The notes beneath the pieces were generated by a model. It was not told where the DNA came from. It did not search any database and saw only the letters and a program-made list of their open reading frames with translations. A stretch of DNA of 64,000 nucleotides from Centipeda felix (GTDB taxonomy: Bacteria; Bacillota; Negativicutes; Selenomonadales; Selenomonadaceae). Below are positions 54,846-63,852 of this stretch, in pieces (the stretch's first letter is position 1; every line of letters starts with the position of its first letter). The translations under genes and the position numbers were made by a program. The stretch lies in the NCBI RefSeq assembly GCF_900186465.1, contig NZ_LT891958.1:483604-547603 (forward strand). Direction: 5' to 3'.

Positions 54846-54922
54846 TGCGTTTTTATCTCTTTATTGATAATATGTAGTCATATTTTGGTGATATTTCATA
54901 GCAAACACGAAAGGAGGGCATG

Positions 54923-55762
54923 ATGCTTCAATATTTTCCCAAGCGCAACTACCGCCCGACATTTCAAAAAGGAGCATCGCCCTCCCTTTCCTATATTTGC
55001 AACGTGGGACCGGAGGCATCGTATATGCCGCGCAGCCTGCACGAGCATCCATATCTGGCAGAGATTTTGCTCCTCTACAGCGGCGCGGGCATCTACATGA
55101 TCGACGGGCGCCGGTACACGGCGCGAAAGGGCGACCTCATCCTCTACAACAGCCATGTCGTGCACGATGAGCACGGCGGCAGCGGCAGTGCGCTCGGCAC
55201 CTACTGCATCGCTGTCAGCGGGCTGTGTGTGGACGGGCTACCGCAGGGACACATCCTGCCGGCCTCGCTGTCCCCGATTCAGTCAACGGGGGATGATTTT
55301 GATGAATTTATGGCACTCTTCGGAGCCATTGAAAAAGAGGCACCTGCGCACCCGGAGACCGCTCACTACCTCACGCTTTCCCTCCTGACGAAAATCTCTG
55401 CCCATCTGGCGGAGCACGGGAAAAAGGAGGAAGCTGCCGTCCCATCAACCGTGCGTGCAGCGCGCGCCTATATCGACCAGAACTACAAGGACGCCATCTG
55501 TCTGGAGGACATCGCCCGCGCCACCCACACCAATCCATATTATCTTGCGCATCTGTTCAAAGAGGAAGTCGGGCTGCCGCCGATGAAGTACGTCGCACTC
55601 CGCCGCATCGGCGAGGCGCAAAACCTCCTCATCAATACAGAGATGACCGTGACACAAATTGCGGCGCATGTCGGCTACAACAACTCCAACTATTTTCAGT
55701 CTGTCTTTAAGCGTGCCATGGGCATCACACCACGGGAGTACCGTGTGCGCTGGGTACGCTGA
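54923..55762 (+). CDS. AraC-family transcriptional regulator
   Basis: A 279-residue regulator. An N-terminal cupin (about 20-120: LAEILLLYSGAGIYMIDGRRY, KGDLILYNSHVVHDE) senses the ligand; the C-terminal AraC HTH pair (about 180-278) has ICLEDIARATHTNPYYLAHLFKEEVGLPPMKYV and ITPREYR. The ATG at 54923 gives better spacing to AAGGAGG than that at 54920. A 6-bp inverted repeat, AATATG-TAGT-CATATT, lies at 54869. It probably activates inositol genes; the full cupin makes it the better candidate of the two AraC proteins here. Confidence 0.85.
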   Translation: MLQYFPKRNYRPTFQKGASPSLSYICNVGPEASYMPRSLHEHPYLAEILLLYSGAGIYMIDGRRYTARKGDLILYNSHVVHDEHGGSGSALGTYCIAVSGLCVDGLPQGHILPASLSPIQSTGDDFDEFMALFGAIEKEAPAHPETAHYLTLSLLTKISAHLAEHGKKEEAAVPSTVRAARAYIDQNYKDAICLEDIARATHTNPYYLAHLFKEEVGLPPMKYVALRRIGEAQNLLINTEMTVTQIAAHVGYNNSNYFQSVFKRAMGITPREYRVRWVR

Positions 55763-57945: not shown

Positions 57946-58267
57946 TTATGCGCCGAGCAGTTCGTGCTTGATGCGCTCAAGCGCCTCGGGCGCCTGTTTG
58001 TCCATCTTCTCGGGGAAGCTGTTCCTCGGTCGGTCCCGACCAACGATAGACCACGATGAAGGAGGAGATTTCAACCCCTGTCTCCTTGAGTGCCTTGCGA
58101 TACTCTGCCTCCGTCTCCTCGGAGAAGAGCGGGTGCTTGTAGAACGGGTTGATGCGCGGATGCGGGGACTGCTCGATGTACTTGTAGCCCCAGTCCGCAA
58201 CCTTGTGCACCATGTCGTTGATGCTCATCTGCTTGGCGAGAACATCAACATCGAATGCGATTTTCAT
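57946..58267 (-). pseudogene. iolH-like sugar phosphate isomerase/epimerase, internally deleted and frameshifted
   Basis: The ATG at 58267, after AGAAGAGG, encodes MKIAFDVDVLAKQMSINDM then KYIEQSPHPRINPFYKHPLF and SSFIVVYRWSGP, the N-terminus of an IolH-like TIM-barrel isomerase. After about 80 residues the homology stops. The frame then runs into a short unrelated tail (stop at 57977), while the true C-terminus, ERIKHELLGA, survives in another frame ending at 57946. The family length is about 280-290 residues, so about 60% is missing. It is inactive by this reading. Confidence 0.75.
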
Positions 58268-58284
58268 GGAAACAACCTCTTCTG

Positions 58285-59172: not shown

Positions 59173-60111
59173 ATGTTCGCAGCAGAGGCAAAGCGGGAGG
59201 ACGGCATCGAGGCAGTCTCCATTGCCACGCCGAATTTCACGCATTACGAGATTGCAAAGGCGGCGCTCGAAGCAGGCCTGCATGTCTACTGCGAAAAGCC
59301 CATGTGCTTCTTCTCCAACGAGGCACAAGAGCTGGAGCGGCTAGCGAAGGAGAAGAACCGCATCATGTTCCTCTCCTACGGCTACTGCGGGCATCAGATG
59401 ATCGAGCAGGCGCGCCGCATGGTCGCTAGCGGCGACCTCGGCTCCATCCGCATCCTTAATATGCAGTTCGCACACGGCGCACACAACGTCGCGATCGAAA
59501 AGAAGTCGGCAGCGACGGCATGGCGTGTCGCCCCGAAGAAGGCGGGTCTGTCCTACGTCCTCGGCGACGTTGGGACGCACATGCTCTATCTGCAGGAGGC
59601 AATCGTCCCGAACATCAAGATCCGACGCCTTATGTGCTCGGCACAGAGCTTCGTCGAGGGACGCGCACTTGAGGACAATGCCATGACCATCATGGAGTAC
59701 GAGAGCGGCGCCATAAGCTACATCTGGTCGAGCTGCGTCAACGCGGGCTCCGAGTTCGGTGCGCGTTTCCGCATCGTCGGCGAGAAGGCGTCAATCGCAT
59801 GGGATGCCGAGCATCCGAACCAGCTCCAATACGAAGTGCAGGGCAGCATGCAGGGCGCGATGCAGCGCGGTGCGGGTTATCTCTATGCCGAGGCACGTGC
59901 GGACGACCGCATCGGCGGCGGTCACCCCGAGGGACTCTTCGAGGCGTGGAGTAACCTCTACACAAAATTCGCACGCGCAATCGACAAGAATGTAAAGGGC
60001 GAGCCAATCGACTTCTGGTATCCCGACGTCCATGCGGGCGCCGAGGGCGTGAAGTGGGTCGAGAAATGCGTCGAATCCGCAAAGGACGAAGGCGCTTGGG
60101 TGACGTACTAA
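59173..60111 (+). CDS. Gfo/Idh/MocA-family oxidoreductase lacking its NAD-binding N-terminus (probable pseudogene)
   Basis: A 312-residue frame that begins inside the fold: DYKEMFAAEAKREDGIEAVSIATPN, with EKPM later. The Rossmann motif GxGxxG and about the first 55-65 residues of the family are absent. The upstream sequence is the TSUP stop and a 33-bp gap with no start of that type. The Shine-Dalgarno-like AAGGAG touches the ATG and cannot serve it. The C-terminal domain is intact (GDVGTHMLYL, FRIVGEKASIAWDA). A 5' deletion junction near 59150 is the simplest explanation. Substrate would have been a sugar or inositol derivative. Confidence 0.75.
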   Translation: MFAAEAKREDGIEAVSIATPNFTHYEIAKAALEAGLHVYCEKPMCFFSNEAQELERLAKEKNRIMFLSYGYCGHQMIEQARRMVASGDLGSIRILNMQFAHGAHNVAIEKKSAATAWRVAPKKAGLSYVLGDVGTHMLYLQEAIVPNIKIRRLMCSAQSFVEGRALEDNAMTIMEYESGAISYIWSSCVNAGSEFGARFRIVGEKASIAWDAEHPNQLQYEVQGSMQGAMQRGAGYLYAEARADDRIGGGHPEGLFEAWSNLYTKFARAIDKNVKGEPIDFWYPDVHAGAEGVKWVEKCVESAKDEGAWVTY

Positions 60112-60169: not shown

Positions 60170-60247
60170 ATTCCCAAAACTACAAATTTTTCACAAACTT
60201 TTGCATGAATATATAAAAACATAACCAAAACATATCGTTTTTGAATC

Positions 60248-60296
60248 GAAAACAGGCAGAAACATGAAAGCGTACGCAGCAATAATCTCCTATACT
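60248..60296 (+). promoter_or_regulatory. Activator site and -10 box of iolT
   Basis: AACAGGCAGAAACATGAAAGCG starts at 60251, and TATACT lies exactly 40 bp downstream (60291-60296). No -35 box is visible. The same site with the same spacing precedes iolI, so a common activator of the AraC type is probable. Confidence 0.65.
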
Positions 60297-60358
60297 TAAC
60301 ACAAGGCAAAACCTCAACGGCGCGCAGCGGATCCACGCACCGAGGTTTTACAGGAAGC

Positions 60359-60526
60359 ATAGGGAATCACTGATAAAATGAGGTCTGCCAGATTGGCGTA
60401 GATTTTTCGTCCGAACGAGGTGGAAAACCGGACGCAGAGTGGTGCTCTGTGGAGGATTTTCCGCCGAAGTGCGGGCAAAAAAGATGCGTCAAGATGGTTG
60501 TACCGAATTTATCAGCGCTTCCATAG
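60359..60526 (+). mobile_element. MITE-like element, copy C, with 4-bp target duplication
   Basis: A 160-bp element (60363-60522), ends GGAATCACTGATAAA and TTTATCAGCGCTTCC, flanked by ATAG (60359-60362 and 60523-60526). It is inserted in the iolT leader between promoter and gene. A frame starting in the element at 60439 runs in phase into iolT. Confidence 0.88.
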
Positions 60527-60585
60527 ATAAGGGCTTCATATTATCCATACTTCCTACCGCATTCATTTATAGGGAGGATTGCAGC

Positions 60586-61974
60586 ATGGCAGAACAAACG
60601 CACAAGCAATACCTGAGGCGCGTCACATACGTCTCAACCTTCGGCGGACTTCTCTTCGGCTACGACACCGGTGTCATCAACGGTGCGCTCGCCTACATGT
60701 CCCGCCCCGATCAGCTCAATCTGACGCCAGCCGTGGAGGGCTTCGTCGCGAGCGGGCTGCTCTTCGGGGCGGCAATCGGCTCGTTCCTCGGCGGACGGAT
60801 TGCGGACGCTCAGGGACGCCGCAAGATGCTCCTCGTCCTCGCCGTCATCTTCTTCTTTGCGGCACTCGGCTGTGCCGTCTCCCCGACCGCACCCATCCTC
60901 ATCGCCTGCCGCTTCGTCCTCGGACTTGCCGTCGGCGGTGCCTCCGTCACCGTTCCCGCCTATCTCGCCGAGATGTCGCCCGCCGACCGACGCGGACGCA
61001 TGGTAACGCAGAACGAGCTGATGATCGTCACAGGTCAGCTCCTCGCCTTCGTCCTCAACGCGATCCTCGGCGTCACCTTCGGTGAGACGGGTCACATCTG
61101 GCGCTACATGCTCGCGATTGCGTCCCTGCCCGCCATCGTCCTCTGGTTCGGTATGCTCACCATGCCCGAAAGTCCTCGTTGGCTGGTGCTCAACGGACGC
61201 ATCAGCGACGCATTGGAGGTTCTCAAGAAAATCCGCTCGGAAAAAGTCGCGATCTCCGAGTTCAACGAAATTCAGGACAACCTCGAAGCCGAAAAGCATA
61301 TCAAAAAGGCCTCCTACAGCGACCTCGCGACCCCATGGATCCGCCGCATCGTCTTCATCGGCATGGGCGTCTCCATCTGTCAGCAGATCTCAGGCGTCAA
61401 CTCCATCATGTACTACGGCACGCAGATCCTCACCGAGGCAGGCTTTTCGACCGAGGCTGCACTCATTGGCAACGTTGCAAACGGTGTCATCTCCGTCCTC
61501 GCCACCATCTTCGGTATTTGGATGATGGGCCGCCACGGACGCCGCCCGCTCATCATGACGGGACAGATCGGCACCATGGCGTGTCTGCTCGCCATCGGTA
61601 TTCTCTCTGCGATGCTTGAGGGTCAGGCGGCTCTCCCCTACGTCGTACTGTCGCTGACCGTCACCTTCCTCTTCTTCCAGCAGGGCTTCCTCTCCCCCGT
61701 GACGTGGCTGCTGCTCTCCGAGCTGTTCCCGCTGCGTCTGCGCGGCATGGGCATGGGCTGCGCCGTCCTCTGCCTCTGGCTCACGAACTTCTGTATCGGC
61801 TCGGCGTTCCCGTACTTCCTCTTCACCTTCGGCCTGTCCTTCACGTTCTATATGTTCGCGGCTGTCGGGCTGCTCGGACTCGCCTTCGTTTTCAAATTCG
61901 TACCCGAAACAAAGGGACGCTCGCTCGAGCAGATCGAGCACGACTTCCGCCACCACGGGGAAGCGACGGCATAA
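60586..61974 (+). CDS. iolT: Sugar-porter MFS transporter, inositol type (IolT-like)
   Basis: A 462-residue proton-linked transporter with 12 helices. Sugar-porter signatures are present: FGGLLFGYDTGVINGAL, ADAQGRRKML, PESPRWL, QQISGVNSIMYYG, GRHGRRP and PETKGRSLEQIE. Its inositol role is inferred from the iol neighbours. The ATG at 60586 has AGGGAGG; an in-frame extension of 49 codons into MITE copy C is not accepted as the native start. Confidence 0.88.
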   Translation: MAEQTHKQYLRRVTYVSTFGGLLFGYDTGVINGALAYMSRPDQLNLTPAVEGFVASGLLFGAAIGSFLGGRIADAQGRRKMLLVLAVIFFFAALGCAVSPTAPILIACRFVLGLAVGGASVTVPAYLAEMSPADRRGRMVTQNELMIVTGQLLAFVLNAILGVTFGETGHIWRYMLAIASLPAIVLWFGMLTMPESPRWLVLNGRISDALEVLKKIRSEKVAISEFNEIQDNLEAEKHIKKASYSDLATPWIRRIVFIGMGVSICQQISGVNSIMYYGTQILTEAGFSTEAALIGNVANGVISVLATIFGIWMMGRHGRRPLIMTGQIGTMACLLAIGILSAMLEGQAALPYVVLSLTVTFLFFQQGFLSPVTWLLLSELFPLRLRGMGMGCAVLCLWLTNFCIGSAFPYFLFTFGLSFTFYMFAAVGLLGLAFVFKFVPETKGRSLEQIEHDFRHHGEATA

Positions 61975-62008
61975 AAACACCGTTAGCAGAAGCCCCTCTT
62001 CTAACGCT

Positions 62009-62051
62009 TACACAGTTCCCCTCTCTCGTTTCAACGAGAGAGGCTTTTTGT
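62009..62051 (+). terminator. Terminator of iolT
   Basis: CCTCTCTCGTT and AACGAGAGAGG pair around a 2-nt loop and are followed by CTTTTTG. Confidence 0.85.
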
Positions 62052-62138
62052 TGCAAAAGGACAAAAGCAAAAATCTTTCATTCGACAGATTTTTTTTGCT
62101 ATACTGATATTATTCAATGGAAAGCGAGGTGCTGTGCC

Positions 62139-62813
62139 ATGACGATCCTCTACTACAAGGCGGCAAAAAAGCTGCCGCCCCCGCCGGCGTTTGGCGAGGC
62201 GCTTCGTCTCATCTACATCGGCTACAACGACCGCGAGGAAACCCTCATGCCCTCCGCCTTCCACCGGCATGAACACAACCTCGAACTCCAACTGATCTGT
62301 CAGGGGCGCGGACACATCCGCATCGGCAGCCGCATGTATGACGTGCAGCGCGGCGATGCCATCACCCGCTCCATCCTCAGAGCACTCCTGCAGATCCTGC
62401 TCTTCCAGCTCCCGCACGAGCCGATCGCCCCCGTACGCGAAAAGGATTGCCTCTTCATCGCGCTCAAGGACTACATTGACCGTCACTTTATGGAGGAACT
62501 ATCCGTCGAAACGCTGAGCGCACGTGTCCACATGAGCACCTCGGGGCTTGCCCACCAGTTCAAGAAACGCTTTGGCTTCGCGCCCATCCAGTACATCATC
62601 CGCCGCATCGGGGAGGCACAGACTCTCCTCGTCACGACCGACCTCTCTATCACCGAGGTGAGCGCACGCATCGGCTATGACAACATCAGCTATTTCAACA
62701 ACCAGTTCAAGAAGTTCACGGGGCTGTCCCCACAGAGCTACCGCAAATACAAGGTCGGCATGAACCAGTACAAGCAGCTCGGCGAAATTGCAGGGCAGGA
62801 GCGTCGCCGCTAG
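62139..62813 (+). CDS. AraC-family regulator with shortened sensing domain
   Basis: A 224-residue protein. The C-terminal AraC HTH pair (about 125-205) is complete: DRHFMEELSVETLSARVHMSTSGLAHQFKKRFG and SPQSYRKYK. The N-terminal cupin stops after YDVQRGDAI (residue ~76) and jumps to RSILRALLQILLFQL, a helix that normally follows some 60 residues later. The full paralogue at 54923 is 279 residues. An in-frame deletion is likely, so ligand sensing may be lost. GAGGTG precedes the ATG; the frame is open far upstream over iolT, which is shadow. Confidence 0.78.
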   Translation: MTILYYKAAKKLPPPPAFGEALRLIYIGYNDREETLMPSAFHRHEHNLELQLICQGRGHIRIGSRMYDVQRGDAITRSILRALLQILLFQLPHEPIAPVREKDCLFIALKDYIDRHFMEELSVETLSARVHMSTSGLAHQFKKRFGFAPIQYIIRRIGEAQTLLVTTDLSITEVSARIGYDNISYFNNQFKKFTGLSPQSYRKYKVGMNQYKQLGEIAGQERRR

Positions 62814-62900
62814 TGTGCAGAAAGCAGCATGCAGAATTTCCCCTGCAGCCTCCCTTTTGCAGAAAAGTGCAAGTCCCATGGCTTGCACTCTTTTTTTTTA

Positions 62901-62952
62901 CGAAAAAACAGGCAGAAACGGGAAAGCGCGAACGCTGCACCTGCGCTACAAT
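62901..62952 (+). promoter_or_regulatory. Activator site and -10 box of iolI
   Basis: AACAGGCAGAAACGGGAAAGCG starts at 62907, and TACAAT lies exactly 40 bp downstream (62947-62952). It matches the iolT site at 20 of 22 positions. No -35 is seen. Confidence 0.65.
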
Positions 62953-63018
62953 AGAATCACGATAAGAAGTGGACAGCTTATCATTGGTTTTCATCATCTG
63001 AAAAAAGGAGCACGGACT

Positions 63019-63852
63019 ATGAAGATCAGCATGAATCAGGCGACTTGCCTGGAGAAATCCAGTCTAGCGAAAGACATGGAACTCTGCGAAAAGTACGGAT
63101 TCGACATGATCGAACCGCGCACGATGGACGGCATCCCGAACTATCTCAAGAACCACACGATCGAGGATCTCGCCGCCGACCTCAAGAGGCACAAGCTCGA
63201 ACCGCTTGCCTTCAACACCCTGTGCTTCTTCAACAACCGCAGTCCCGAGGACTACGCAAAGGTACTCGACGAGCTGCGCCAGATGTGCGAGTGGGGCAAG
63301 GTGATCGGCTGCAAGACGGTCATCACAGTGCCGACCGTCGAGCTGAAGAAGGTCACGATGCAGGAGATCCACGACTCCGCCGTCAAATGCCTCAAGGAGA
63401 TGGGCGCGATTGCGGCAGAGTACGGCATGCGCATCTCGGTCGAGTTCCTCGGCCATCCTGCGGCATCCATCAACACCTTTGCACAGGCATACGAGATCAT
63501 TCAGGACGTGGACATGGATAACATCGGCATCACCGTCGACTGCTTCCATTTCTACGGCATGGGTTCGCGCCTTGAGGATCTCGCGCAGGCGGACGGCAAG
63601 AAGATCTTCATCGTTCATCTGAACGACACGGAGGACTTCCCCATCGGCGCCCTGCTCGACGAGGATCGCGTCTGGCCGGGCACGGGCTGCATCCCGCTCG
63701 ACGACATCCTCCAGACGCTCAAAAAGATCGGCTGGGCGGCGGATGCCGTATCGCTCGAACTTTTCCGTCCCGAATACTACCAGATGGATCCCGAGGATGT
63801 CTACCGCATCGGCAAGGAAAAGGTCGACGCCGTGATCAAGCGCAATTTTTAG
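63019..63852 (+). CDS. iolI: Inosose isomerase IolI
   Basis: A 277-residue TIM-barrel isomerase that interconverts inosose isomers. The pattern is that of B. subtilis IolI (278 residues): MELCEKYGFDMIEPRTMD, NTLCFFNNRSPED, VEFLGHPAASINTFAQAYEI, and HLNDTEDFPIGALLDEDRVW followed by PGTG, SLELFRPEYY. Metal-binding Glu, Asp and His residues are included. AAAGGAG precedes the ATG at 63019. It is full length, unlike the iolH-like gene nearby. Confidence 0.92.
   Translation: MKISMNQATCLEKSSLAKDMELCEKYGFDMIEPRTMDGIPNYLKNHTIEDLAADLKRHKLEPLAFNTLCFFNNRSPEDYAKVLDELRQMCEWGKVIGCKTVITVPTVELKKVTMQEIHDSAVKCLKEMGAIAAEYGMRISVEFLGHPAASINTFAQAYEIIQDVDMDNIGITVDCFHFYGMGSRLEDLAQADGKKIFIVHLNDTEDFPIGALLDEDRVWPGTGCIPLDDILQTLKKIGWAADAVSLELFRPEYYQMDPEDVYRIGKEKVDAVIKRNF

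Follow-up and report, generated by a model that had tools for sequence, protein, structure and literature searches.

Two near-identical motifs in a 64,000-nucleotide stretch of Centipeda felix DNA (the window; NCBI RefSeq assembly GCF_900186465.1, contig NZ_LT891958.1, positions 483,604 to 547,603 of the forward strand) precede iolT, encoding a sugar porter, and iolI, encoding an IolI-type protein. Each motif is probably the half nearer the promoter in a conserved bipartite operator of araC2, an AraC/XylS-family activator encoded between the two. An earlier reading made from the letters alone (i.e. the sequence-only reading) had described both motifs as a shared AraC-type activator site. The operator is real and conserved, and that reading was right on its type and geometry but saw half of the element and probably named the wrong protein. 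The upstream half at each promoter and a set of deletions within araC2 of this genome are additional to it.

The motif AACAGGCAGAAAC-NN-GAAAGCG was present on the forward strand at 60251-60272 and 62907-62928, the two copies being identical at 20 of 22 bases and differing at the NN positions alone, exactly as reported. The core of each copy is a proximal half-site, GCAGAAACATGAAAG at 60256-60270 over the -35 position of iolT and GCAGAAACGGGAAAG at 62912-62926 before iolI. Each -10-like hexamer (TATACT at 60291-60296 and TACAAT at 62947-62952, both on the forward strand) begins 40 bp after the start of its motif, with 18 bp separating the iolT box from its 17-base proximal element, which runs from GCAG to GCG. 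The hexamers 17 bp 5' of these boxes (AAGCGT and AAGCGC) agree with TTGACA at one of six positions each, and a consensus promoter scan found no -35/-10 pair at either site, its single unrelated match (9/12) being at 62970-62997; the description of a -10 box without a -35 was thus borne out. Both sites have the 15-bp form GCAx-N7-xAA in forward orientation, overlap an absent or poor -35 and stand at a fixed distance from the -10 box. These features, together with the half-site form and spacing in relatives, support a class II (i.e. -35-overlapping) AraC-type activator operator common to iolT and iolI.

Searches allowing up to three mismatches gave these two matches only in the window (0.01 expected; two matches in 0 of 100 shuffles) and the same two alone, both with 0 mismatches, in the genome of 2,400,528 bases, for which the reversed pattern gave one match as a control. 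A looser pattern of proximal half-site and -10 box also recovered these two sites alone from the genome, with 0 and 1 mismatch, while its reversed form gave two matches at up to three mismatches. No further copy was present before iolG or iolA within the window, as the sequence-only reading had stated. As the genome yielded just these two copies, the regulon that it had envisaged would be a small one of iolT and iolI.

The genes behind these promoters are of inositol type for IolI and the IolG-type protein, as judged by sequence, and iolT is identifiable as a sugar porter alone. The iolT gene (60586-61974, forward strand) encodes a 462-aa major facilitator superfamily sugar porter with Pfam Sugar_tr and TIGR00879 matches above cut-off, whose substrate, from its context, would be inositol. 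The iolI gene (63019-63852, forward strand) encodes a 277-aa protein matching Bacillus subtilis IolI (1i60, E 4.1e-93) and is followed, beyond the window, by an IolG-type inositol dehydrogenase gene (iolG2; L003 6106-7116) with a match to 3mz0 (E 6.6e-110).

A second half-site, GCAG-N7-MAAR, was found 52-53 bp (i.e. five helical turns) 5' of each proximal one. In the window both distal copies lie on the forward strand at 53 bp, with GCATGAATATATAAA at 60203-60217 before iolT and GCAGAAAAGTGCAAG at 62859-62873 before iolI. Offsets of 16-109 were scanned at 22 promoters from the window and 17 loci, leaving out L071 (a near copy of L070), L074, L081 and L083. The best offset for a further half-site was 52 bp and the next 53 bp; offsets of 21-22 were not among the 12 best, indicating that adjacent tandem half-sites are not the arrangement at these promoters. 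A set of 11 promoters from eight genera in two families was drawn from one genome per genus, with two promoters each for g1, g7 and f33. Here the mean at offset 52/53 was 6.55 of 7.5, the top of 93 offset pairs, followed by 4.59, 4.50 and 3.95, whilst 2000 random sets reached a maximum of 4.64 at any offset; one of the 11 promoters (g8) had no good distal copy.

Both sites recur in the sister species (G028), each at its orthologous promoter, and the order iolT-araC2-iolI-iolG2 was seen again, in whole or in part, in other genera. The upstream regions of relatives follow the form GCAG-N7-MAAG, with N18 after the 17-base element and then a -10 box. A 21-position consensus scored at least 16 at 17 places in 497,302 strand-bases where ~0.2 were expected, three of the 17, at the loci of G039 and G040, being shifted copies or distal ones. 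A combined element (i.e. distal half-site, proximal half-site and -10 box) was then scored with a cut-off of 16.5. Among 189 genomes of the family, 27 contained iolI, at 29 places, and the element reached the cut-off upstream of 23 of these in 22 genomes, 472 bp upstream in G047 and G048. A recognisable distal half-site was present at 20 of the 29 places, and the other three of the 23 scored on the proximal half-site and -10 box. In 854,382 strand-bases, made up of 39 loci of relatives and the final 14 kb of the window, 27 places scored at least 16.5 as compared to ~0.7 expected from a single match in 1,239,573 bases of first-order Markov sequence. Nineteen of these lie before iolI, four before iolT and four before other genes of inositol or sugar catabolism type (i.e. 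a 308-residue isomerase, an isomerase of the 57977 type, and IolG-type and Gfo-type dehydrogenases, some named by eye), although the gene types were partly preset because the loci had been picked around such genes.

In a collection of named genomes the element was found at 9 of 42 iolI loci, eight of which repeat records already counted and one of which (L230, a contig of a Megasphaera metagenome-assembled genome) was new. None of 30 iolI loci titled outside the Negativicutes (L236-L268 minus L246, L251 and L266) carried it; L251, left out of this set, does so. The divergent intergenic regions of L072, L079, L080 and L084 gave best proximal scores of just 10-14 of 21. A loose search for the proximal half-site and -10 box in 15 genomes was informative in the GC-richer genomes alone. 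This search was not used to estimate regulon size because match numbers in A+T-rich genomes were near those of the reversed control (25 and 13 in G045, 32 and 17 in G046, 23 and 25 in G048, 21 and 12 in G178). A pair of half-sites 53 bp apart was also observed before araC2 itself (L080 6720 and L079 9993; G145 and G166); with a score of 16.4 these pairs fall under the cut-off and were excluded from the counts, and autoregulation of araC2 through them is possible.

The proximal site could matter alone, the distal copy being a by-product of a terminator hairpin or a site for another protein. A terminator-like hairpin followed by a T run does lie behind araC2 (62866-62889, forward strand), and the iolI distal half-site of the window overlaps it, as appeared by eye to be so in g7 and g9. 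Moreover, the distal half-site was unrecognisable at 3 of the 23 element-bearing iolI places (G105, G055 and G053), where the proximal one was present. By eye, however, distal copies stand without such a hairpin before iolT in g1 and g7 and before iolI in G125, G166 and G145, and their offset is constant at 52-53 bp, so a proximal site acting alone seems unlikely.

The 3' part of the iolI distal half-site forms the 5' arm of the araC2 hairpin (62859-62889), and one stretch may act as both operator and terminator because the two have bases in common. Between the half-sites of the iolT promoters of L067 and L068, a near inverted repeat of the form CGTTTTC-N5-GAAAACG was seen by eye, with a trace in the window; it is possibly the site of another regulator.

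The product of araC2 (62139-62813, forward strand) belongs to the AraC/XylS family by its C-terminal pair of helix-turn-helix (HTH) motifs (HTH_18, E 1.7e-20, above cut-off). The gene is nevertheless damaged in this genome, having 224 codons as compared to 302 in the sister species, the difference being 77 codons lost from the cupin domain and a single Arg codon lost from the helix between the HTH motifs. The cupin domain is of full length in most aligned relatives, and after the loss of 77 codons it scores 22.1 here for Cupin_2, under the cut-off of 27.2. The single-Arg gap is shared by 0 of 28 aligned rows from other genes, the protein of G040 (Mitsuokella multacida) ending before this region. 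No second match to araC2 was found elsewhere in this genome at 1e-50. The switch in this genome is probably non-functional, orphaned or altered, because araC2 is internally deleted; with a damaged regulator and no second copy found, the two sites may be orphaned.

The surrounding cluster is also altered. The distal half-site of iolT differs from that of the sister species, which has GCAGAAATATATAAA. About 600 bp is deleted relative to that species inside the isomerase gene at 57977-58270, and a deletion of ~1.3 kb has taken away the beginning of the Gfo-type dehydrogenase gene at 59173 together with an iolE-like gene. Three deletion junctions are thereby present, including that of araC2, and two of them have 5-6 bp of common sequence. 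The open reading frame at 57977-58270 was considered as the iolE of the main pathway and ruled out, as iolD and iolE of that pathway, both open and above cut-offs, lie 41-43 kb before the window. A dispersed repeat of ~165 bp occupies the iolT leader (60361-60525), between the promoter and the iolT start, and is absent from this place in the sister species. The repeat has at least 45 matches in this genome and at least 43 in that of the sister species and, having ends that by eye are nearly inverted, may resemble a miniature inverted-repeat transposable element.

The cluster is read as decaying in this genome, and this strain would then have lost its inositol response. The shortened araC2 might instead still work, for example as an inducer-independent activator freed of its sensor domain. 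The reading frame is kept across the deletion, Pfam still recognises the two HTH motifs, and the proximal sites and -10 boxes of both promoters are undamaged. This is rather improbable, as a codon has also gone from the helix between the HTH motifs, where other genes have no gap, and as the altered distal iolT half-site, the three neighbouring genes deleted or lost and the repeat in the iolT leader look like decay. In M. multacida (L067 7063-7722) araC2 is also broken, though differently, lacking the second HTH, while the scores of the two operators there are those of intact sites; repeated loss of the regulator is thus possible.

As the protein that would bind the operator, the sequence-only reading proposed an AraC of 279 residues, which is taken to be the product of the 280-codon gene beside iolG (54920-55762, forward strand; the second codon is also Met). 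This gene is intact and in the same cluster, while araC2 is damaged, and 20 of the 22 genomes with the element before iolI have a match to it. Every one of these 22 genomes has a match to araC2 (damaged in G000, i.e. this genome, and in G040), whereas G049 and G073 had no match to the 280-residue AraC at 1e-50, these genomes being just 85% and 91% complete. Position is more telling. The element was found at 16.5 or above in 0 of 30 neighbourhoods of the 280-residue AraC (~1.5 kb on each side; 30 of 44 matches), two of which scored 15.6-15.7, about chance level. Outside the family the element was present at four of seven araC2-like loci, the four most similar. All four araC2 copies in f33 (~50% identical, one with an internal stop) are directly followed by an element scoring 18.9-19.4, which stands immediately before iolI in two cases and before a sugar isomerase gene in the other two, an arrangement that speaks against the 280-residue protein. 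Of 38 genomes with this protein, 15 have no araC2 match, and a single motif match (up to two mismatches) was found in three of these and none in 12, although this search is weak for other genera because the motif form of this genus was used. Position and control loci thus discriminate in favour of araC2, where co-occurrence does not, and the likely regulator is araC2; activation of both sites by the 280-residue AraC was judged quite unlikely from its neighbourhoods and co-occurrence, and this part of the sequence-only reading is set aside.

A chance repeat or a common promoter sequence without a regulator might be imagined from a motif with just two copies in this genome, but is very hard to credit for an element that is kept across genera, and in a second family, at constant spacing.

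Several observations weigh against araC2 and a bipartite operator. At six of the 29 iolI places no element reaches 16.5. Two of them fall below the cut-off (G045, 14.1; G046, 15.1) with the proximal half and -10 box present and a neighbouring araC2-like protein that is 40-41% identical; the others are G178 (araC2 and iolI both broken), G114 (a partial gene), G037 (no araC2 match) and a second iolI of M. multacida. The element was found at just 4 of 10 iolT genes (eight upstream and two divergent regions), namely those of the window, G028, G039 and G040. The remaining three of the seven araC2-like loci outside the family (G260, G263 and G281; 40-42% identity) have no element, an absence that may reflect drifted specificity. 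In genus g10, 14 of 14 araC2 neighbourhoods fetched away from iolI (L199-L212) had no element at 16.5; in g10 the element therefore sits at iolI and not beside araC2. Co-occurrence by itself does not separate the two AraC proteins, because 20 of the 22 genomes that carry the sites also have the 280-residue one. The loci from which the consensus was initially drawn up by eye were later included in the counts, and 2 of the 11 promoters in the offset test (those of f33) had been found by a score that included the distal half. Finally, the reading rests on sequence, with binding and expression as its predictions.

The arrangement proposed here has partial counterparts in known systems. Tandem AraC/XylS half-sites are spaced by ~21-22 bp, and in the araO2-araI1 pair of Escherichia coli one AraC dimer bridges two separated half-sites in a loop of ~210 bp that serves repression. 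The operator of araC2 would be alike in having bridged half-sites, which are here 52-53 bp apart with a proposed role in activation. The excerpts of published work used for comparison describe consecutive half-sites for the dimeric AraC/XylS activators XylS, MekR, MtlR and AraC (PMC4514859). As in those tandem operators, two direct half-sites are present, the downstream one at or over the -35, for a regulator of sugar or aromatic catabolism; in contrast, the two half-sites start 52-53 bp from each other, and the best offsets do not include 21-22 bp. Class II sites of MarA, SoxS and Rob take the forms GCAHWWWWTGYYAAA (marbox), GCAC-N7-TAAA and GCAC-N7-CAA in the same excerpts (PMC6900184, PMC4514859), and share with the sites described here the half-site form, the 15-bp length, the forward orientation and the overlap with the -35. 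MarA, however, binds as a monomer, whereas the regulator here would carry a cupin domain and a further half-site stands five turns upstream. ReiD of Salmonella enterica is described in its source excerpt as an AraC-family activator of iolE and iolG1 (PMC9430895). By description only, it resembles araC2 as an AraC-family activator serving inositol degradation genes and differs in its targets, which are proposed here to be iolT and iolI-iolG2. No such operator was evident from title or abstract among the literature matches listed, though it may already have been published.

In the proposed mechanism araC2, as a cupin-HTH protein, would sense an inositol, whether myo-inositol, D-chiro-inositol or a keto form. 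It would bind two direct half-sites GCAG-N7-MAAR, one over the missing -35 and one five helical turns upstream. Bound araC2 would then recruit RNA polymerase to iolT for uptake, and to iolI and the following IolG-type dehydrogenase gene for isomerisation and oxidation. A dimer bridging the two separated half-sites is suggested because their spacing is wide and keeps helical phase. A bolder extension, somewhat less likely than not, is that a clade of AraC activators in the Selenomonadaceae and in metagenome-assembled genomes labelled Megasphaera uses half-sites five turns apart. The dimer would have to bridge a very short loop around the DNA that RNA polymerase contacts upstream, in contrast to published operators of dimeric AraC/XylS proteins, whose half-sites are consecutive, and the species of the window would have been left without an intact activator.

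According to the excerpt of a published study, Mitsuokella converts phytate and myo-inositol in the gut (PMC12482443). For the uptake and isomerisation of inositol by Mitsuokella and Selenomonas relatives, a regulator, an operator and target genes are now proposed, and the widely spaced operator would represent a variant of AraC-type activation that is open to testing.

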